Shown: positions 13,422-21,551, counted from the stretch's first letter. The stretch: DNA of 46,171 nt from Acidobacteriota bacterium (GCA_024641545.1 JAHECW010000021.1:1-46171), one strand, 5' to 3'. Program-made: numbers and translations. The notes: generated by a model not told the origin, from the letters alone.

Positions 13422-13979
13422 CTACAGCAACACCGAGAAGCTGTGCTCGAGCTGCCGCGCGATCTGCTCCTGAGTGGTCTTGTTGAATCCCTCGGCATCG
13501 ATGAACGCCACCACGAATCCCTCGCCGCCGGCGACCTCGGAGCGGAATCCCGAGAGTCGCCGGTTTGCGAACTCCAACGCGATGGACCTGAGGGAACCCA
13601 TCTCCGGATTCATGACGTCAGCCTGGCTCATGACATAGCTGAGCTCGGCCCCGGTTCCCTCGAAGCCGTCTTCGGGCACGTTGCCGCTCGAGCCGATGAC
13701 AAAGCCCTGCGGGTCGACTGCGAAGGCGGCCGACGACCGGACGGTGTTGAGGCTCCACTCGAGGAACTCGTCCCAACGGGTGAAATCGTTGAGCTCCGCA
13801 GCGACCGGTTCCCCCCGGGTTTCGGCGGCGGGCGGAACCGGAGCGGCCGATGGGGTGAATCGGAGGTAGGGCTGCGCTCCGGACGCGGTCGGCCCGGGAC
13901 CGGAGCCGAGACCGCTGAGGCGGCGCGAGAGGGCGCGGGCGATGTCCACGTCAGACGAGCCGACGGTGTTCGTTGTCAT
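13422..13979 (-). CDS. Roadblock/LC7-like domain protein with N-terminal linker
   Basis: 185 residues. Residues 1-65 are a low-complexity Gly/Pro/Ala linker; residues 65-185 look like a roadblock fold: FLEWSLNTVRSSAAFAVDPQ, GFVIGSSGN, then SIALEFANRRLSGFRSEVAG and GEGFVVAFIDAEGFNKTT. Roadblock proteins act as partners or regulators of small GTPases or, here possibly, of an ATPase. The start overlaps the 3' end of the ParA-like gene by 29 bases, so translation is probably coupled. It is the last gene of a three-gene minus-strand operon (PATAN-roadblock, ParA-like, this gene). No lipid anchor or membrane segment is seen. Confidence 0.65.
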   Translation of the reverse strand: MTTNTVGSSDVDIARALSRRLSGLGSGPGPTASGAQPYLRFTPSAAPVPPAAETRGEPVAAELNDFTRWDEFLEWSLNTVRSSAAFAVDPQGFVIGSSGNVPEDGFEGTGAELSYVMSQADVMNPEMGSLRSIALEFANRRLSGFRSEVAGGEGFVVAFIDAEGFNKTTQEQIARQLEHSFSVLL

Positions 13980-14757
13980 CCTCGACTCCAGTCATTTGGT
14001 TGATCCGTGCTTCGATTTCGTCGGAGAGCAGGGTGAAACGACGGGCCTCGGGTCGGGTGCGGCCGCCGAGGAAGCTCAAGGGAATTCCGAGCTCGCTCGC
14101 CTCGGTGAAGACCCCGGAGCGCGGGATGACGGTGTCCAGCACACCGCCGAATCCGGACCAGACGGCGCTCATGACGTTGAGGGAAGGGTCGCTGTCGAGT
14201 TGGACCATGGTCGGGAGGATTCCGAGCAGCTGCAGCGAGGGGTTTTCGTGCCGCTGAACATGATCGATCACCCGCAGCGTCTGGCTCATGGTGCGGAAGG
14301 CCACCGGTTCGGCCTGCAGCGGCAGGAGCACGAATCTGCCGACGGCGAGGGCGGCGCGGGTGACCGGGCCGAGCCCGGACGGGGTGTCGATGAGGGTGAA
14401 GTCGACATCCTCCTCGATGGCGTCGAGGGTGTTCGAGAGCACATCGCCGTTGTGGAGTCGGAGTTCGTACTCACAGGTGTCGACGGGGTCGATCCGGCCA
14501 CGTGGGAGGATTCGGAGGGTCGGCAGCGAAGTCGTCATGAGAACCTCGTTCGGCGAGGCTCCCGTGATCATGACCTCGGCGAGACCGCCCCAGTCGCTGT
14601 CTTCCTTGGCCAGGAAGAGCCCGATGGCTCCCTGCGGATCGAGGTCGACCACGATGGTGTTGCGCCCGCGTTCGGCGAGGGCCACCGCAAGGTTCAGGGC
14701 GGTGGTGGTCTTGCCGGTGCCCCCCTTGGAGCTCGTCAGGACGATTCGATGACTCAT
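13951..14757 (-). CDS. ParA/MinD-type ATPase
   Basis: 268 residues with the deviant Walker A loop KGGTGKTT (about residues 11-18) that marks ParA/MinD/Soj proteins. It also has DLDPQGA as switch I/Walker A' and DFTLIDTPSGLGP as Walker B. These ATPases dimerise on ATP and position cargo such as DNA, cell-division or chemotaxis proteins on the nucleoid or membrane. No ParB gene, membrane-targeting amphipathic tail or helix-turn-helix is seen, so it is not an ordinary chromosome segregation pair. Its operon partners on both sides are roadblock-domain proteins, which suggests they are its regulators or cargo adaptors; that is inference. It is 102 bases downstream of the PATAN-roadblock gene. Confidence 0.85.
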   Translation of the reverse strand: MSHRIVLTSSKGGTGKTTTALNLAVALAERGRNTIVVDLDPQGAIGLFLAKEDSDWGGLAEVMITGASPNEVLMTTSLPTLRILPRGRIDPVDTCEYELRLHNGDVLSNTLDAIEEDVDFTLIDTPSGLGPVTRAALAVGRFVLLPLQAEPVAFRTMSQTLRVIDHVQRHENPSLQLLGILPTMVQLDSDPSLNVMSAVWSGFGGVLDTVIPRSGVFTEASELGIPLSFLGGRTRPEARRFTLLSDEIEARINQMTGVEDDNEHRRLV

Positions 14758-14859
14758 GGTTGCTACCTCGCTTCGACGTTGCCACGAGTCGTCGATGCTC
14801 GACGCCCGGACACTCTCGGGTTGGTGGTTGTGTGCCGCATCTCGGTTCCTGTTCCTCTA

Positions 14860-15579
14860 TCAAACGCGGAGCACCTTGGCCAGGGCATCGGCCAGGTGCT
14901 GGGTCTTGTGTCGGATGACTCCGAGTTGCGCTCGCCCGGGGGCCACGACAACGAGCACGGCGCTGGCAACAGGAAGGCAGAGGAGCTGGAATCGGTCGTA
15001 CTCGATGAAGAGACCTCCGAACGGTTGACAGCCCTGCGCCCGGCCGAGGCCATCGACGGTTTCGATGAGCGTCTTCAAACCCGTGCCGAGCTCTTCCATC
15101 TTCACCGTTTCGTCCGGACTTGCCGACGCAATCGGTGACCCGTCCCGCGCCGTCAGAATCGCGGCGAGGACTCCGGACGAATCCGCAAAGGAGCTGAGCA
15201 GCCGTTGCGGCGCCTCTTTTTGATCACACTCAGCGATCTCCCGCCGGCGCTCGTCGAGGCGGCGAGCTGCCTCGACAAGGGCATTCTGCAGACTGACCTC
15301 GATGGTCACGGTCGGGCACGCTTTGTTTGTCGAGAAGATGAACGTGCCCTCGACCCACGAGATGATCGCGACCAGCGCGTCAATTCCGGTGGTGGTTCCC
15401 TCCTGCGCGTGATAGACGGCGCCGCGATCGAAGTAGACCTGAGAAGTCTGTTTGTCGGGGCCGCCCTCCACCCACAGCTCGCCGGTTCGCCCGGTTGTGT
15501 TGAGGAACTGCAACACGTCGGTCAGCGTCGTAAAAGCCAGCGAGCCGCGAAGATCTTCGACCGGTTCAACTCCCATCAT
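14860..15579 (-). CDS. PATAN (DUF4388) plus roadblock-like two-domain protein
   Basis: 239 residues. The N-terminal part (about 8-105) is a PATAN/DUF4388 domain: LRGSLAFTTLTDVLQFLNTT, GRTGELWVE, SQVYFDRGAVYHA and WVEGTFIF are its usual landmarks. The C-terminal part (about 118-239) looks like a roadblock fold (SSFADSSGVLAAILTARDGS, GLFIEYDRFQLLCLPV, SAVLVVVAPGRAQLG). PATAN domains are known from response regulators and signalling scaffolds. It is the first gene of the minus-strand operon. Two ATGs occur in tandem (15579, 15576), with an AGGAG-like ribosome site upstream. It has the same domain order as the protein at 16260-16946, transcribed away from it on the opposite strand. Confidence 0.75.
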   Translation of the reverse strand: MMGVEPVEDLRGSLAFTTLTDVLQFLNTTGRTGELWVEGGPDKQTSQVYFDRGAVYHAQEGTTTGIDALVAIISWVEGTFIFSTNKACPTVTIEVSLQNALVEAARRLDERRREIAECDQKEAPQRLLSSFADSSGVLAAILTARDGSPIASASPDETVKMEELGTGLKTLIETVDGLGRAQGCQPFGGLFIEYDRFQLLCLPVASAVLVVVAPGRAQLGVIRHKTQHLADALAKVLRV

Positions 15580-16259
15580 GCACGCCCTCTCCTGTCAGAA
15601 TACCGCAATTCCAGCCGAGAGGGTCGGTTGGTCGCGGAGAGAGCGGTGCGAGCGCTCGCCGAGCGGGGGCGGGGGACCGACGTCGGCGATCGGGCCCCGG
15701 CGGCAGCTCGGATGGGCTCGCCACGGCTCGCTGCGATTGCAGGGATGGTTCGGAGGTGAAGACCGGAAGTCGGCGACGATGGAGCAGCACCTGTTCACTA
15801 TCGGGAAGACGCATTCCCATTATTGAACAGGCACGAATATTTCTTGATATTGAGACAAAGTATTCATCGCAGATGAGTGACTTGCGGATGGTCTCGGTTC
15901 GAGCCGTCTCAGGCTCAAAAGCGCGACGAGTAGGAGGTTTTGCCGACCCGTGTGTACAATAGTGGTTGGTCCCGTTGTACCAGGTGCACCGGAAGGCACA
16001 TGGTCGCGACGGGCGGCACGGTTCATGCAAGTGGCTCACCTGCGTTGAATGTGGAGGGCATTCGTGGCGAGAACTGTCGGTCCAGGACCCCGCAGGGGAA
16101 TCCGATGACGGTCTTGTTCGAGATCACCGCTCGTCTCGAAGCGGCAACGCGTCTCACGTCGTCCTGCCTGTCGGCTCGGCGCAGACCGGTCGACCCCGTG
16201 CCCCAAACCATCACTGCCGCCGGTTCCGTGGGAAGACAGCCACGATGGGGGGTGGATCG
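15580..16259. other. Long divergent intergenic region between two PATAN/roadblock operons
   Basis: About 680 bases separate two diverging starts. Frames extend through it but have poor protein character. Positions 15785-15880 are AT-rich compared with the neighbours and contain a 42-bp two-part dyad (15790-15831). TGTACAAT at 15953-15960 is -10-like, but no convincing -35 is seen. Both operons are probably controlled from here. Confidence 0.55.
15790..15831. promoter_or_regulatory. 42-bp interrupted dyad in the divergent promoter region
   Basis: CCTGTTCA (15790-15797) pairs with TGAACAGG (15824-15831), and on the same axis GGGAA (15803-15807) pairs with TTCCC (15814-15818). The shared centre suggests a binding site for a dimeric regulator, or an RNA hairpin on either transcript. 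Confidence 0.45.
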
Positions 16260-16946
16260 ATGCTGAGGGGTTCTCTGGCTGATCTCGCGATCGTGGATCT
16301 GGTGCAGATCCCGCTTGGCAACCGCAAGACCGGCGAGCTCCTGATCGCCACCGAGGAGCAGGATGCCCGTTTGTACTACGTCGATGGAAGCCTGGTCCAC
16401 CTGGTTTCGGGCGATGTCGAGGGAACGGCCGTCCTCGATCTCATCATCGGTTGGAACGACGGCGAGTTCGAGTTCCGGCCGGATGTCCTGACCGAGGATT
16501 CGAGTTTTTCGGGCGATCTCACTCCGAAGCTGGTTGCCGCGGTGGAGCAGTTGAACGACACGGAGAAGGCGCAGAGAACCGCCGGCAAGAACGCCGACAA
16601 GATTCGACGGCTGTTGTACGACTTCCTGGCCGACAACGACTACGCCATTCATGCCTGCTTGATGTACTCCAACGGAACGATGGATGTCTGCGGCGCCGAA
16701 CGGGTGGAGACCCCGCCGTGGCTCGAGAAGATCCGCGCCACCGTCCTCGATGTCGTCGAGAGCTATCCCCGACGCCGTCTCAATCGAATGTTTTTCGAGG
16801 ATGAGGACGGGACGCTGGTCGTGACCTGCTATCCGGAGAACCGGGCGGCGCTCCTGGTTGCCGCCAAGCAAGGGGCCACCCTCGGGGCGGTCTCCATCGG
16901 TGTCGATCGTCTCGCGAGAAAGATCGGGCATGTCAAATCGACCTGA
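16260..16946 (+). CDS. PATAN (DUF4388) plus roadblock-like two-domain protein
   Basis: 228 residues from ATG 16260, which follows a GGGGGTGG ribosome site; ATG 16245 is also possible. A frame from 15966 lacks protein character before this point. Residues 1-78 are the PATAN domain: LRGSLADLAIVDLVQIPL, RKTGELLIAT, ARLYYVDGSLVHLVSGD and WNDGEFEFRPD. After a helical linker, residues 105-228 resemble a roadblock fold (RRLLYDFLADNDYAIHACLM, RMFFEDEDGTLVVTCYPENR, AALLVAAKQGATLGAVSIGV). Its domain order matches 14860-15579, so the two arose by duplication or shuffling. It is followed after 69 bases by a single-domain roadblock gene. Confidence 0.75.
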   Translation: MLRGSLADLAIVDLVQIPLGNRKTGELLIATEEQDARLYYVDGSLVHLVSGDVEGTAVLDLIIGWNDGEFEFRPDVLTEDSSFSGDLTPKLVAAVEQLNDTEKAQRTAGKNADKIRRLLYDFLADNDYAIHACLMYSNGTMDVCGAERVETPPWLEKIRATVLDVVESYPRRRLNRMFFEDEDGTLVVTCYPENRAALLVAAKQGATLGAVSIGVDRLARKIGHVKST

Positions 16947-17015
16947 GACTTTGATTTCGAGAGAACGGTTTTCCGGCGGGACGCCGCCGGCGAGCCCGGA
17001 AAGGGGAATGGCGCC

Positions 17016-17372
17016 ATGTCGCAACTGACGGATTTACTCAACGAGCTCGTCAACGTGGAGGGCATCAACTCGGCGGTGGTGGTCGGGCGCGACGGATTCG
17101 TGATCGAGGGTGTCGCCTCGGGGACGAGCCTCGATGCCGACGCGGTGGGCGCGGTGATCTCCACCGGAATCGGATCGTCCGAGGTCATGGGTCGCGAGCT
17201 CGAGGTCGGCGCCATGACCCAGGGCATGGTGGAGTACGACGACGGGCTGATCGTGATGGCCCTGCTCGGCGAGGAGGCCATCGTCGCGGTGGTTGCGGAT
17301 CTCAACGCCAACCTCGGCAACGTGCGTTTTCAGATCAAGAAACGCCTGAAGGCCATCGAGAAGGCGTTGTGA
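17016..17372 (+). CDS. Roadblock/LC7 domain protein (MglB-like)
   Basis: 118 residues forming one roadblock/LC7 domain: LTDLLNELVNVEGINSAVVV, GRDGFVIEGVA, DADAVGAVISTGIGSS, GMVEYDDGLIVMALLGEEAI and NLGNVRFQIKKRLKAIEKAL. This resembles MglB-type proteins, which act as GTPase-activating or guanine-exchange partners for MglA. No MglA GTPase is in the window; the nearest nucleotide-binding partner is the ParA-like ATPase at 13951. AAGGGG precedes the start. The hydrogenase operon begins 169 bases downstream on the same strand, so read-through is possible. Confidence 0.85.
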   Translation: MSQLTDLLNELVNVEGINSAVVVGRDGFVIEGVASGTSLDADAVGAVISTGIGSSEVMGRELEVGAMTQGMVEYDDGLIVMALLGEEAIVAVVADLNANLGNVRFQIKKRLKAIEKAL

Positions 17373-17541: not shown

Positions 17542-18030
17542 ATGAGTCGAGAGCTGCAGACGCTCCACAACGTTGCATACTTCGTCGGTGCATTGGCTCA
17601 CGGCGCGGAGCAGAACCTGGGCCGCGGCAGTCTCTCCATCTGTTCCCTGGCGGGAAAGAAATTCGGCCAGGAGGCGGTGGAGGGGTCTCGCCAGACCGAC
17701 AACCCCGAGGAGGCGGTGGCCATCCTCCGCGAAGCCCTCAAGAAACAGGGGATCGTCTGGAATTTCGAGCCCTTTTCGGGCGAACGCGGATCCTCGATTG
17801 AATCGGACGGCGAAACCCACAAGATGCGTCTCGTCTTCAGAACGTGCATGGTGCGGAACGCGCTCTTCAGATACGGACACGAGCAGAAGCAGTCGCTGTG
17901 CTACATGGCCCACGGCGTCTTTGCCGGCGCCATGGAAAACGTCATGCCCGGCACCAAGGTCGAGCTCAACATCATCCACGCCGGCCCCAACGGGTGCCTC
18001 AAGGAAATGGTGTGGGAGGTCAAACAATGA
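17542..18030 (+). CDS. V4R-like domain protein, first gene of the hydrogenase operon
   Basis: 162 residues with a good SD (GGGAGG) before ATG 17542. The C-terminal part (about 95-160) has C102 (FRTCMVRN), C120 (QSLCYMAHGVFAGA) and C152 (PNGCLKEMVWE). This resembles V4R (4-vinyl reductase) or ATC-hydrolase-type small-molecule-binding domains. It aligns over almost its full length with the C-terminal two thirds of the operon ferredoxin (20368-21084): cysteine spacing is 18 and 32 here versus 18 and 30 there, and LAGKKFGQEA...EEAVAILREAL...WNFE matches MAGRTLARHL...NEALALAEKQF...WEFS. It lacks the iron-sulfur region. It is translated into the small subunit gene with an ATGA overlap. A sensor or an assembly factor are both possible. 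Confidence 0.75.
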   Translation: MSRELQTLHNVAYFVGALAHGAEQNLGRGSLSICSLAGKKFGQEAVEGSRQTDNPEEAVAILREALKKQGIVWNFEPFSGERGSSIESDGETHKMRLVFRTCMVRNALFRYGHEQKQSLCYMAHGVFAGAMENVMPGTKVELNIIHAGPNGCLKEMVWEVKQ

Positions 18031-18962
18031 AAGCTCGAGTCTCCACCGACTGGTTGTCAGGTTGTTCGGGCTGCCACGTGGCCATGGTCGACCTCCACGA
18101 GAAGCTCCTCGGTCTCGTCGAGGAGGTCGACTTCGTTCGGGTTCCGGTCCTCATGGACGAGAAGAACTACCCCAGGGCTGATGTCGGCGTGGTCGAAGGC
18201 GCGGTGCGGTCCGACCACGACCGGGTGGCGCTGGAGAAGATGCGCGCCAGTGTCGACAAGCTCATCGCCTTCGGTAGCTGTGCGGTCTATGGCGGCCCTT
18301 CAGGTCTCGGTTGGCTGCACGAACGCGAAGGCGTGATGGCGGCGATCTACGACGGCGGTCCCACCAACGCCGGTGGCGAGCGACCCGACTCGGATGCGCC
18401 GATTCTCGAAGACAGCGTCGTGCCCATTGATGAGGTGGTCGAGGTCGATGCCTACCTGCCCGGTTGTCCGCCGCACCCCTACTTCATCGCCGCCGGCCTG
18501 CGGGCGGTGCTCGGGGTCTCGGATCTCGAGCTCACCGCGATGAGCGTCTGCGCCGACTGCGATCGGAAGATGCACAAGAACCAGGGCGCGGCGTTGCGCC
18601 GGGGCGAGGTCACCGCGGAAAAGGACAGCCTTTGTTTTCTGAGCCAGGGAGTTGTCTGCCTGGGCTCGGTCACCCTCAACCGTTGTCAGGCGCCGTGTCC
18701 GCAGTCGGGTGTCGCCTGTTTCGGCTGCGCGGGGCCATCGGTGGATCTCATCACCGAGCCGCACCTCGATCTTCGGAACCTCATCGGGCGGCGGCTCAAC
18801 ATGCTGACCGGGATCTCGGAAGACGATGTCACCCGGTACTTCCAGGAGGATGCCAAGACTCTGTACGCCTACGCGGTCGCATCACCGGTGATCCACGGCA
18901 AGCCCACCGTGGAAATGAGGGCGTGGGCCGGTGACAAACCGGCCGTCGAGGGAGGTACGTGA
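18027..18962 (+). CDS. [NiFe]-hydrogenase small subunit, group 3 (Mvh/Frh type)
   Basis: 311 residues; ATG 18027 overlaps the previous stop (ATGA). It passes electrons between the NiFe site and acceptors through iron-sulfur clusters in the cytoplasm; no Tat signal is present, as expected for group 3. The proximal cluster ligands are C13 and C16 (LSGCSGCHVAM), C85 (FGSCAVYGG) and C147 (LPGCPPHP). The C-terminal part has C175/C178 (VCADC), then C203, C211, C220, C224, C231 and C234 in the order SLCFLSQGVVCLG, RCQAPCPQSGVACFGCAGPS. This is the arrangement of MvhG/FrhG, which hold two further 4Fe-4S clusters. The AVYGGPSGLGWL stretch also favours Mvh/Frh over HoxY. No hdrA, mvhD or frhB gene accompanies it. 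Confidence 0.88.
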   Translation: MKARVSTDWLSGCSGCHVAMVDLHEKLLGLVEEVDFVRVPVLMDEKNYPRADVGVVEGAVRSDHDRVALEKMRASVDKLIAFGSCAVYGGPSGLGWLHEREGVMAAIYDGGPTNAGGERPDSDAPILEDSVVPIDEVVEVDAYLPGCPPHPYFIAAGLRAVLGVSDLELTAMSVCADCDRKMHKNQGAALRRGEVTAEKDSLCFLSQGVVCLGSVTLNRCQAPCPQSGVACFGCAGPSVDLITEPHLDLRNLIGRRLNMLTGISEDDVTRYFQEDAKTLYAYAVASPVIHGKPTVEMRAWAGDKPAVEGGT

Positions 18963-20371
18963 TGGGAAGCCGCATTGTCGTCAACCCGGTGACCCGGATC
19001 GAGGGCCACGCCAAGATCATCCTCGAAATCGAGGATTCGGGCGCGCTCAAGAGCGGCCACATGCAGGTGCTCGAAATCCGCGGGTTCGAGAAGCTCCTCC
19101 AGGGAATGGAGTTGCTCAAGATGCCGCAGATGACCGCACGGCTGTGCGGCGTCTGTCCGGCGGCCCACCACCTGGTGGCCACCGCCGCCATCGAGCAGGG
19201 AATGGGGGTCACTCCGCCACCGGACGCCAAGGTTCTGCGCGAGCTGCTCTACGCCGGCCATGTCCTGCACTCGCACGCGCTGTCGAATTTCGTGCTCACC
19301 GGTCCCGACATTCTTCTCGGGATCAACGCCGCGGCCGACAAACGCAACGTCTTCAACCTCCTCGCCATCGACCCGGAGTTGTCAAAGTCCCTGCTCCGGA
19401 TCCGCAGCATCGGACAGCGCACGGTGGAGCTCGTCGGGGGCCGGGGGGTGCACCCGGTGACGGCCGTCCCCGGCGGAATAGCCTCCCGACCCAGTGCGGA
19501 GAAGCTCGAGCTGATGGCCGGTTGGGGCCTAGAAGCCACGGCGTTGTTGGAAAAGGTCATCGAGGTCCTCAAGCCCAAGCTCGATGAACTCGACCCGCTG
19601 CGGCAAGCGACACAGCTGCCGTATCACTCCCTCGCCCTCTCCAACAACGGGGTCGTCGATCTCCTCGAAGGCGAATGGGTGGCCATCGACCCCGACGGTC
19701 ATGAAGAGCGGCGTTTCGCGGGGCCCGGCTACGGCGACAATCTTATCGAGCACGTCATGCCGGGCTCCTACATGAAGAGCGTTCAGCTCAAGAACCCCGG
19801 ACCCAAGAACTTCTTTGTCGGGCCGCTCGCCCGGCTCAACGTCAACTCGAAGATGACCACCCCCAAGGCCCAGGCCCACCTCGACGCCTTTCGCGCATCG
19901 GGCCAGCCCAGGCTCTCGGCGGTGGACTTCATCAGTGCCCGGCTCATCGAAATGCTCAACTGTGCCGAGCGGATCGGTGTCATCGCCGGTGGCGAGATCG
20001 GTGACGGCCCTCTGAGGGTCGGCATCCCAGCGGTCAAGGCGGGCCGCCATGTCGGGGTCATCGAAGCCCCGCGCGGGATTCTGGTGCACGATTACACCAC
20101 CGACGACGACGGCCGAATCGCAACTGTCAACCTCATTGTCGCCACCCAGAACAACTACGATGCCATCGACTCCGCGGTCGAGGGCCTCGCCCGGCACTAC
20201 CTGTCCGAAGGCGACGACGAACAACTCCTCAACGGTGTCGAGTTCGCCATGCGGTGCTTCGATCCGTGTCTCGCCTGCGCCACCCACACCGCCGGGCGGA
20301 TGCCCATGATCGTCGAGATGCGGCGCGGCAGGGAGCTGGTGCGGACCATCCGAAGGGGGGCGGCATCATGA
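18959..20371 (+). CDS. [NiFe]-hydrogenase large subunit, group 3
   Basis: 470 residues; starts 4 bases inside the small subunit stop region. It carries the NiFe(CN)2CO active site that splits or makes H2. The L1 motif is RLCGVCPAAHH (C62, C65, H69) and the L2 motif is DPCLACATH (C437, C440, H443), so all four metal cysteines are present. A 27-residue tail follows H443 and is the expected substrate of the maturation protease at 21081-21551, which would cut after H443. Length and motifs fit MvhA/FrhA-type group 3 enzymes better than membrane-bound uptake enzymes. Direction of catalysis cannot be read from the sequence. Nickel-insertion genes (hypA-F) are not in this window. Confidence 0.92.
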   Translation: MMGSRIVVNPVTRIEGHAKIILEIEDSGALKSGHMQVLEIRGFEKLLQGMELLKMPQMTARLCGVCPAAHHLVATAAIEQGMGVTPPPDAKVLRELLYAGHVLHSHALSNFVLTGPDILLGINAAADKRNVFNLLAIDPELSKSLLRIRSIGQRTVELVGGRGVHPVTAVPGGIASRPSAEKLELMAGWGLEATALLEKVIEVLKPKLDELDPLRQATQLPYHSLALSNNGVVDLLEGEWVAIDPDGHEERRFAGPGYGDNLIEHVMPGSYMKSVQLKNPGPKNFFVGPLARLNVNSKMTTPKAQAHLDAFRASGQPRLSAVDFISARLIEMLNCAERIGVIAGGEIGDGPLRVGIPAVKAGRHVGVIEAPRGILVHDYTTDDDGRIATVNLIVATQNNYDAIDSAVEGLARHYLSEGDDEQLLNGVEFAMRCFDPCLACATHTAGRMPMIVEMRRGRELVRTIRRGAAS

Positions 20372-21084
20372 TTGAGATTACCGTTGACGAGAAAGCCTGT
20401 GTCTCCTGTTCGCTGTGCGCCGAAATCTGCCCGACCGATGTCTTTGTCTGGGATGAGGACAGAGGCCTCCCCGGAGTCGCCAAACCCGGCGAGTGTTTCG
20501 GCTGCCTCAGCTGCTCCGAAATCTGCCCGCCGCACTGCATCAGCCATGCGGGCGTCGAGCTCGCCGAGAGCCACTACCACGATCCGTACGCGCTTCGGCT
20601 CGCGAGCCGGCTCGCCGCCGATGTCGACGGCCGGTTCAACGTGCCCTCGGAAGAAGCGTCCCAGCGCCAGGCGGCGGTCGATCTCGGAGTCCGGCTGCGC
20701 TCGGTTGCGGAGGTCTTCAAGAGGACTCTCGGGGGCTCGCTGCCCGCCGTCGGCACGATGGCCGGCCGAACTCTGGCGCGGCACCTGCCGCGTTATCGAG
20801 AGCCCAAGGGCCTCAACGAAGCCTTGGCTCTGGCCGAGAAACAGTTCGCACCGGCATGGGAGTTCTCCACCACCCGCGACGGTGATGCCCTGACCATCAA
20901 CGTTGATCGCTGTTTCGTACGCGAGACCTGCGAGCGCGAGGGCCAGGAGATCGGCGGCGAGATGTGCGTGCTGTTCTACAACTACCTCGCCGGTTATCTC
21001 GGAAAGATGGGCAAGGTGCGGTTGCGGCTGATGAACGCTGAGCGCGGGGCCACGTGCTGCTATGGGGTGAAAATCTACGAGTGA
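20368..21084 (+). CDS. Ferredoxin with two 4Fe-4S clusters fused to a V4R-like domain
   Basis: 238 residues; ATG 20368 overlaps the large subunit stop. Residues 1-60 are a two-cluster ferredoxin: C11, C14, C17, C21 and C43, C46, C49, C53 in the usual CxxCxxCxxxC spacing, with an extra C57. Residues about 120-238 form a V4R-like domain with C182, C200 and C230/C231, homologous to the stand-alone protein at 17542. It probably takes electrons from the hydrogenase small subunit, and the extra domain may bind a ligand or a metal that controls or receives them; this is inference. It has no membrane segment. The fusion replaces the usual heterodisulfide or F420 partners in this operon. Confidence 0.8.
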   Translation: MIEITVDEKACVSCSLCAEICPTDVFVWDEDRGLPGVAKPGECFGCLSCSEICPPHCISHAGVELAESHYHDPYALRLASRLAADVDGRFNVPSEEASQRQAAVDLGVRLRSVAEVFKRTLGGSLPAVGTMAGRTLARHLPRYREPKGLNEALALAEKQFAPAWEFSTTRDGDALTINVDRCFVRETCEREGQEIGGEMCVLFYNYLAGYLGKMGKVRLRLMNAERGATCCYGVKIYE

Positions 21085-21551
21085 CCCGCCCGGCACGAAT
21101 TGCCGTTGTCGGCATCGGCAACACCCTCGCCGGTGACGACGGCGTCGGGGTGGTCATCGCCGACCGCCTGCGGCAGCGCTGGATGCACAGCGAAGAGGTC
21201 CTCGTGGCGGTCCTGCCCGGGGACCTGTTTTCGGTCGCCGATCTCCTCGACCGCGCCGAGGAGCTTCTCTTCGTCGACGCCGTCGCCGGCGACACCCCCG
21301 GTGAGATCCGGATCCTGGGCTCGGCCCTGCGCGCCTTCGCCCCATCGCTCCATCAGACCGACATCGGCAGCGTCATGGCGGCGCTCAGAGAGCTCGATGT
21401 GGCCGACCCGTTTCCGGCCTGGCAGGTGTGGGGGATCACCATCGAGACCCCCGACGAGCTCGGCGAGGGGTTGAGTCCCGAGATCGCCGCCGCGGCAAAG
21501 CGGCTCGAAGCGAGGATCATCGAGCATGTGGAAGCGCTGCTGGCCGGATGA
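21081..21551 (+). CDS. Hydrogenase maturation endopeptidase (HycI/HyaD family)
   Basis: 156 residues from GTG 21081, which overlaps the previous stop as GTGA. This nickel-dependent protease removes the C-terminal tail of the large subunit once the metal site is filled. The GIGNTLAGDDGVG motif at residues 11-23 supplies the first acidic ligand (D19), D66 lies in LLFVDAVAGD, and H91 in SLHQTD; these match the Asp/Glu, Asp and His of HybD. It is the last gene of the operon. A long repeat-rich spacer follows. Group-specific substrate recognition fits the large subunit encoded just upstream. Confidence 0.88.
   Translation: MTRPARIAVVGIGNTLAGDDGVGVVIADRLRQRWMHSEEVLVAVLPGDLFSVADLLDRAEELLFVDAVAGDTPGEIRILGSALRAFAPSLHQTDIGSVMAALRELDVADPFPAWQVWGITIETPDELGEGLSPEIAAAAKRLEARIIEHVEALLAG

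Follow-up and report, generated by a model that had tools for sequence, protein, structure and literature searches.

A [NiFe]-hydrogenase operon with two V4R-fold domains, proposed as a cytoplasmic hydrogen sensor

Introduction

The window analysed here, the whole stretch of 46,171 nucleotides, is an entire contig of a 5.4 Mb genome from the Acidobacteriota, of which the close relatives are Thermoanaerobaculales bins. It contains a [NiFe]-hydrogenase operon that raises the question of where electrons from H2 would go in an enzyme that is encoded together with two V4R-like domains. The original prediction was a cytoplasmic enzyme of which the electron outlet is gated by, or delivered to, a ligand-binding domain. 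Group 2b [NiFe]-hydrogenases are known to sense H2, and the same is suspected of group 2c and of group C of the [FeFe] enzymes; HydDB places sensors only in these groups (PMC5037454). The V4R fold is itself a known sensory fold, with phenol as the ligand and a three-Cys-one-Glu zinc site in DmpR and MopR (PMC7264223, PMC10715001), and it has been proposed as the ancestor of the eukaryotic TRAPP subunits (PMC2253512). On the basis of gene neighbourhoods, we consider it probable that the operon encodes a soluble cytoplasmic H2 sensor, in which a V4R pair receives the signal of an Fe-S chain and passes it on to exchangeable signalling modules. It would then be an H2-sensing hydrogenase, a known kind of system, on an unrelated hydrogenase lineage.

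Operon structure and encoded proteins

The operon (17542-21551) consists of five ORFs on the + strand with successive overlaps of 1-4 bases, and both the ORF coordinates and the Pfam assignments agree with the original description. The first gene (17542..18030) encodes V4R1, a stand-alone protein of 162 amino acids with a predicted V4R/Bet3 fold. It is followed by an MvhG/VhuG-like small subunit (18027..18962; Oxidored_q6), an MvhA/VhuA-like large subunit (18962..20371, alternative start GTG at 18959; NiFeSe_Hases), a 2[4Fe-4S] ferredoxin (residues 1-66; Fer4) fused to a second V4R-like domain, V4R2 (residues ~96-238; gene at 20368..21084), and a maturation protease of the HycI/HupD type (21081..21551; HycI; TIGR00072 at 88.7 bits, over cut-off). 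Among the five ORFs, all four Pfam families named here score over cut-off. The best NCBIfam model for the large subunit is VhuA (253.8 bits, cut-off 800), and the small subunit matches VhuG at 189.7 bits, under the cut-off of 450.

The ligand motifs of the large subunit are intact (L1 RLCGVC, L2 DPCLACATH) and its C-terminal extension is kept. The 12 cysteines of the small subunit, as needed for three [4Fe-4S] clusters, are conserved in 34/34 relatives, and the eight cluster cysteines of the ferredoxin in 44/44. With the RxCGxC and DPCxxC ligands and a maturation protease encoded, the enzyme is predicted from sequence to be catalytically competent; the exception to the L1 ligand set, one subgroup in which UGA replaces the codon of the second L1 cysteine, is discussed below. 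Pfam and NCBIfam searches revealed no HdrABC, MvhD or FrhB partner in the locus, in agreement with the original description, and neither a diaphorase in the locus nor FlpD in the operon.

Upstream of the operon lies a group of genes (13951-17372) that fell outside the region considered originally and that turns out to matter. Conserved neighbours are a roadblock/LC7 protein resembling MglB (17016..17372, + strand; Robl_LC7, 9e-14) and a DUF4388 protein (16245..16946, + strand, start codon assumed; DUF4388, 5.2e-11). A divergent gene (14860..15579, - strand) encodes a protein with DUF4388 (1.7e-19) and a weak roadblock match (Robl, 8.7e-4, below cut-off), next to a ParA/MinD-family ATPase (13951..14757, - strand; AAA_31, 1.1e-28) that is also a neighbour in loci L013, L014, L015 and L066. 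A protein of 185-203 amino acids without a Pfam match (window 13422-13979, - strand; L066:3816-4427, - strand) is encoded as a pair with the ParA-like ATPase (cluster 20), and two different subclades have this gene pair next to the operon.

The two V4R domains

Pairwise, the similarity of V4R1 to the C-terminal part of the ferredoxin is weak (22% identity, E 5e-4), but a comparison of profiles gives 98% probability (E 1.7e-13, 136 columns), and HMMs of V4R1 and V4R2 each recover the other family among the relatives. By their profiles the two are homologous paralogues, which bears out the earlier alignment and the shared fold assumed with it. The matched cysteine triads that had been pointed out, C102/C120/C152 in V4R1 and C182/C200/C230 in V4R2, show no variation among the relatives (41/41 and 37/37, respectively).

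Since searches of Pfam, NCBIfam and PDB sequences with V4R1 gave no significant match, fold prediction was needed. The V4R1 model (pLDDT 87.4, pTM 0.84) has among its best solved matches Bet3 (Z 11.7, 139 aligned, 3.4 A), MopR, PoxR and DmpR, and residues 101-238 of the ferredoxin-V4R2 model match a TPC6-type chain, a Trs33 homologue (Z 13.3, 132 aligned, 3.0 A), with residues 1-66 matching ferredoxins at Z ~9.5; matches that differ by less than one Z unit were treated as tied. The models thus predict the V4R/TRAPP-Bet3 fold for both domains, and the original label of V4R-like is right by fold. Neither family reaches the gathering cut-off of Pfam V4R (V4R1: best E 0.02, 16/41 at E <=0.5; V4R2: 3/37, best E 0.011), and for the fused domain ATC_hydrolase is the better-scoring family (best E 1.9e-7). 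The ferredoxin-V4R2 fusion is found in 30 loci, whereas the two parts are separate genes in a subclade with Geobacter, Eisenbacteria, Latescibacterota and others, which argues that V4R2 is an independent domain.

In TRAPP, Bet3 and Trs33 form a heterodimer. By this parallel, which is suggestive only, a V4R1:V4R2 heterodimer is plausible, and such a pair would hold a metal or cluster through its cysteines and make contact with signalling proteins. The zinc ligands of DmpR are C151, E172, C177 and C185 (PMC7264223); because the cysteines of V4R1, with 17 and 31 residues between them, and of V4R2 are spaced differently, the predicted cysteine site is related to the DmpR zinc site at most.

The fold also invites the explanation that a small hydrophobic molecule, such as a quinone, fatty acid or aromatic compound, sits on the V4R pair and either opens the flow of electrons or accepts them, as phenol-binding MopR/DmpR and acylated Bet3 share this fold. 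We consider such a ligand-gated hydrogenase quite improbable, as the invariant residues, including the shared cysteine triad, are not confined to a hydrophobic pocket and no recurrent gene of a ligand pathway occurs near the family loci. Of the outlet proposed originally, a route of electrons to the V4R domains is possible, but the gene neighbourhoods point to H2 signalling and not mainly to ligand gating.

Phylogenetic position and distribution

A tree of large subunits, as had been suggested for classification, places the V4R family on one side of a branch with SH-aLRT support 100, and thus outside group 3c; bacterial 3c-type enzymes and the references MvhA, VhuA, HoxH and Acetomicrobium are on the other side. 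With a midpoint root and few references, the family may provisionally be regarded as sister to group 3c. The closest solved large subunit is 5odc_F (305 bits). The large subunit is not of the group 2 type found in the 2b sensors, as the best-matching chains are of group 3 and the best NCBIfam model is VhuA. Two further hydrogenases are encoded in the window's genome, a group 1-like one (contig C237) and a four-subunit sulfhydrogenase-like enzyme (C243, probably continued on C280), and these could serve its H2 metabolism.

When genome contigs were searched with a profile of the V4R1 alignment, 49 further loci from ~9 phyla were found, in Acidobacteriota, Fermentibacterota, Thermodesulfobacteriota, Myxococcota, Eisenbacteria, Latescibacterota, Chitinispirillaceae and others; metagenome bins account for nearly all of the members. 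Each V4R1 gene found lies in this operon, adjoining the small subunit in 49/49 loci and, barring contig ends, accompanied by the remaining genes as well. A weak V4R1 match in genome G172 was dropped, as there is no hydrogenase there. At L042:10486-13535 (Candidatus Sabulitectum silens) the small-subunit, large-subunit and ferredoxin-V4R genes are split over several frames, probably by sequencing frameshifts.

The reverse test was done with the small-subunit alignment against two whole-phylum samples. Among 396 genomes of the window's phylum, V4R1 accompanies all three small subunits that score >470 bits and 0/27 of the next-best loci checked (<=212 bits). In the phylum to which Geobacter sp. 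OR-1 belongs (395 genomes), it accompanies 6/6 top-scoring small subunits and 0/28 lower hydrogenase loci checked (<=231 bits), a set that also takes in lower matches from other probed genomes. Pooled, this amounts to 9/9 above 470 bits versus 0/55 next-best (<=231 bits); close relatives thus do not lack V4R1, which would have counted against the original proposal.

As obligate companions, the V4R proteins resemble maturation factors, and they could be seen as assembly factors or structural caps that stand outside the function of the hydrogenase. This is very improbable in our judgement, given that V4R2 is fused to an electron-carrying ferredoxin in the 30 loci mentioned and that V4R is absent beside sister hydrogenases.

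Signalling neighbours

A roadblock, DUF4388, Ras/Arf-like GTPase or chemoreceptor gene is present within 8.5 kb in 46/50 family loci, whereas the sister loci of group 3c have none (0/19; Fisher p 2e-13), the control being made with HMMs trained on the neighbours of the V4R family itself, so that distant relatives in the controls could be missed. Three of the four loci without such a neighbour are at contig ends; L039 is full-length and a true exception. One control locus, L171 of Geobacter sp. OR-1 (G424), has a second, 3c-type hydrogenase adjoining two response-regulator/GGDEF genes (L171:8928-12255), which is possibly another H2-signalling arrangement.

The output module swaps along the phylogeny. 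In one subclade a chemoreceptor is present in 15/15 loci and never together with roadblock/DUF4388 genes, which are found elsewhere. In the four receptors inspected with Pfam, it consists of HAMP repeats and an MCP signalling domain, with no recognised sensor or input domain, and hydropathy analysis indicated no transmembrane segment. A receptor built in this way should depend on another protein for its signal. Upstream of the operon, loci of the Fermentibacterota type carry two roadblock genes and genes for a Ras/Arf-like GTPase, a DUF4388 protein and a DnaA-like ATPase. In L025:6421-8595, L030:6357-8599, L032:5800-8268 and similar loci, the two roadblock genes and the GTPase precede the V4R pair by a few kb, so that roadblock, GTPase and Bet3-like V4R, the fold types of eukaryotic TRAPP/Ragulator or bacterial MglAB, are found in one cluster. 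In loci of the Myxococcota type the neighbour is DUF4388, a Ser/Thr kinase-type protein or roadblock; downstream of the operon in L046, L048, L050, L059 and L069, the roadblock gene is followed by genes for an OmpA-domain protein and for a long protein without annotation (cluster 16), which in some cases has an N-terminal hydrophobic segment. In L066 there are also a histidine kinase and a response regulator. Neighbours of the AAA/DnaA-like, cNMP-binding, OmpA and coiled-coil types are conserved only within subclades and were left out of the model. A signalling role of the roadblock/DUF4388 proteins in these phyla is putative.

These neighbourhoods also bear on whether the enzyme could simply be a metabolic hydrogenase, in which soluble ferredoxins or flavodoxins exchange electrons with the fused ferredoxin, the V4R domains serve as scaffolds and the signalling neighbours only regulate expression. 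The intact catalytic ligands, maturation protease and complete Fe-S relay fit such a role, as does the separate small ferredoxin gene in the Geobacter subclade, which would suit a mobile carrier, and the Mvh enzyme of Geobacter sulfurreducens has been listed among hydrogenases with a possible role in H2 production (PMC7894505). However, sister 3c loci encode a NuoF-like diaphorase, FAD enzymes or MvhD, and no homologues of these partners, nor Hdr, were found near any locus of the V4R family. Moreover, control of expression does not explain why a soluble receptor without an input domain follows the operon throughout its subclade. We therefore regard a metabolic, ferredoxin-linked role as unlikely and prefer an H2 sensor over a fuel enzyme, because the signalling neighbours are nearly always present, the V4R pair is always present and a metabolic electron partner is not visible.

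Proposed mechanism and its implications

In the proposed sensor, H2, which we infer to be the input, would be split at the large subunit, and electrons would pass through the three [4Fe-4S] clusters of the small subunit and the two ferredoxin clusters to the V4R pair. Up to this point the path is suggested by the conservation of the ligands and by what is known of electron transfer in group 3 enzymes. The electrons might then alter the redox or metal state of V4R1:V4R2 via the tri-Cys sites, and the pair would switch a docked partner: in one branch the cytosolic chemoreceptor that lacks a sensor domain, and in other branches, including that of the window, roadblock/DUF4388 proteins, in some cases with a Ras/Arf-like GTPase. 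A bolder version, possible but doubtful, is that this undescribed [NiFe] lineage is a modular H2 sensor in which a Bet3/Trs33-like V4R heterodimer reads the Fe-S redox state and drives interchangeable outputs, the roadblock pair and Ras/Arf-like GTPase of the Fermentibacterota-type branch acting like a bacterial TRAPP- or MglAB-like switch under H2 control.

If H2 sensing by this family is correct, it would represent a third, group 3-related solution over ~9 phyla, and the V4R fold would gain a redox-sensing role. The reading of environmental genomes would also change, as such genes are otherwise counted as H2-metabolising. H2 taxis would become testable in cultured Geobacter.

Probable selenocysteine in the L1 motif

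Two members of the V4R family carry an in-frame UGA at the second L1 cysteine (L066:11601-11603 and L067:3121-3123; RICGT-U-PQAHH), with L2 intact. The same replacement (RICGxU) occurs in L087, L089 and L096 (= L151, L152 and L153) and in L149. A strict pattern search found it in 5/396 genomes of Acidobacteriota, with 0 for the reversed-pattern control; in four of the five genomes it concerns other group 3-type hydrogenases. Pseudogene formation in L066 and L067 was rejected, as the same UGA occurs in other genomes and the rest of the frame is intact. SelB and tRNA-Sec score over cut-off in the L066 genome; in that of L067, tRNA-Sec is just over cut-off and SelB is present only as fragments. 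The hairpin downstream of the UGA is not significantly stronger than in shuffles (z ~-1.3 and -1.0) and does not fold in L149 and L151-L153, and for these reasons it was not used as proof of a SECIS element. The second L1 cysteine is the one that bridges Ni and Fe, and the sequences indicate a probable selenocysteine at this bridging position in several hydrogenases of Acidobacteriota. The selenocysteine known from such subunits takes the place of the first L2 cysteine (UxxC), the only type listed in a 2026 selenoproteome review (PMC13188914); the enzymes described here are not [NiFeSe]-hydrogenases of that type, as L2 reads DPCxxC wherever it is covered.

Comparison with known systems

In the literature searched, no paper connects V4R with a [NiFe]-hydrogenase of this kind. 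The only named member that we could trace is the Mvh enzyme of G. sulfurreducens, of which the cluster GSU2416-2423 includes the chemotaxis transducer MvhV. It is a cytoplasmic Mvh-type hydrogenase with a methyl-accepting chemotaxis gene (PMC7894505, PMC8691401), like the Geobacter-type V4R loci, and Mvh with MvhV is thus probably a member of the family; the accessible parts of the description give no settled partner, V4R pair, link to other phyla or tested function.

Group 3c (MvhADG/VhuADG) provides the closest solved large subunit and a small subunit with the same 12 cysteines, whereas the V4R family stands on its separate, fully supported branch and has no MvhD/HdrABC. The regulatory group 2b and the diguanylate cyclase-linked group 2c (PMC5037454) report H2 to a signalling protein, as proposed for the V4R family, but they belong to another hydrogenase lineage and their output, according to HydDB, is a histidine kinase or diguanylate cyclase instead of V4R with roadblock, DUF4388 or chemoreceptor proteins. 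Coupling of H2 sensing to a chemoreceptor has its counterpart in the putative chemotactic [FeFe] group C2 of HydDB, which has an [FeFe] site and is an unrelated protein family. Finally, the V4R sensors DmpR, MopR and PoxR and the TRAPP subunits Bet3 and Trs33 have the fold predicted for the V4R domains of the operon. DmpR has a Cys-rich zinc site and TRAPP forms heterodimers, whereas the domains described here carry a cysteine triad with different spacing and are tied to a hydrogenase ferredoxin.
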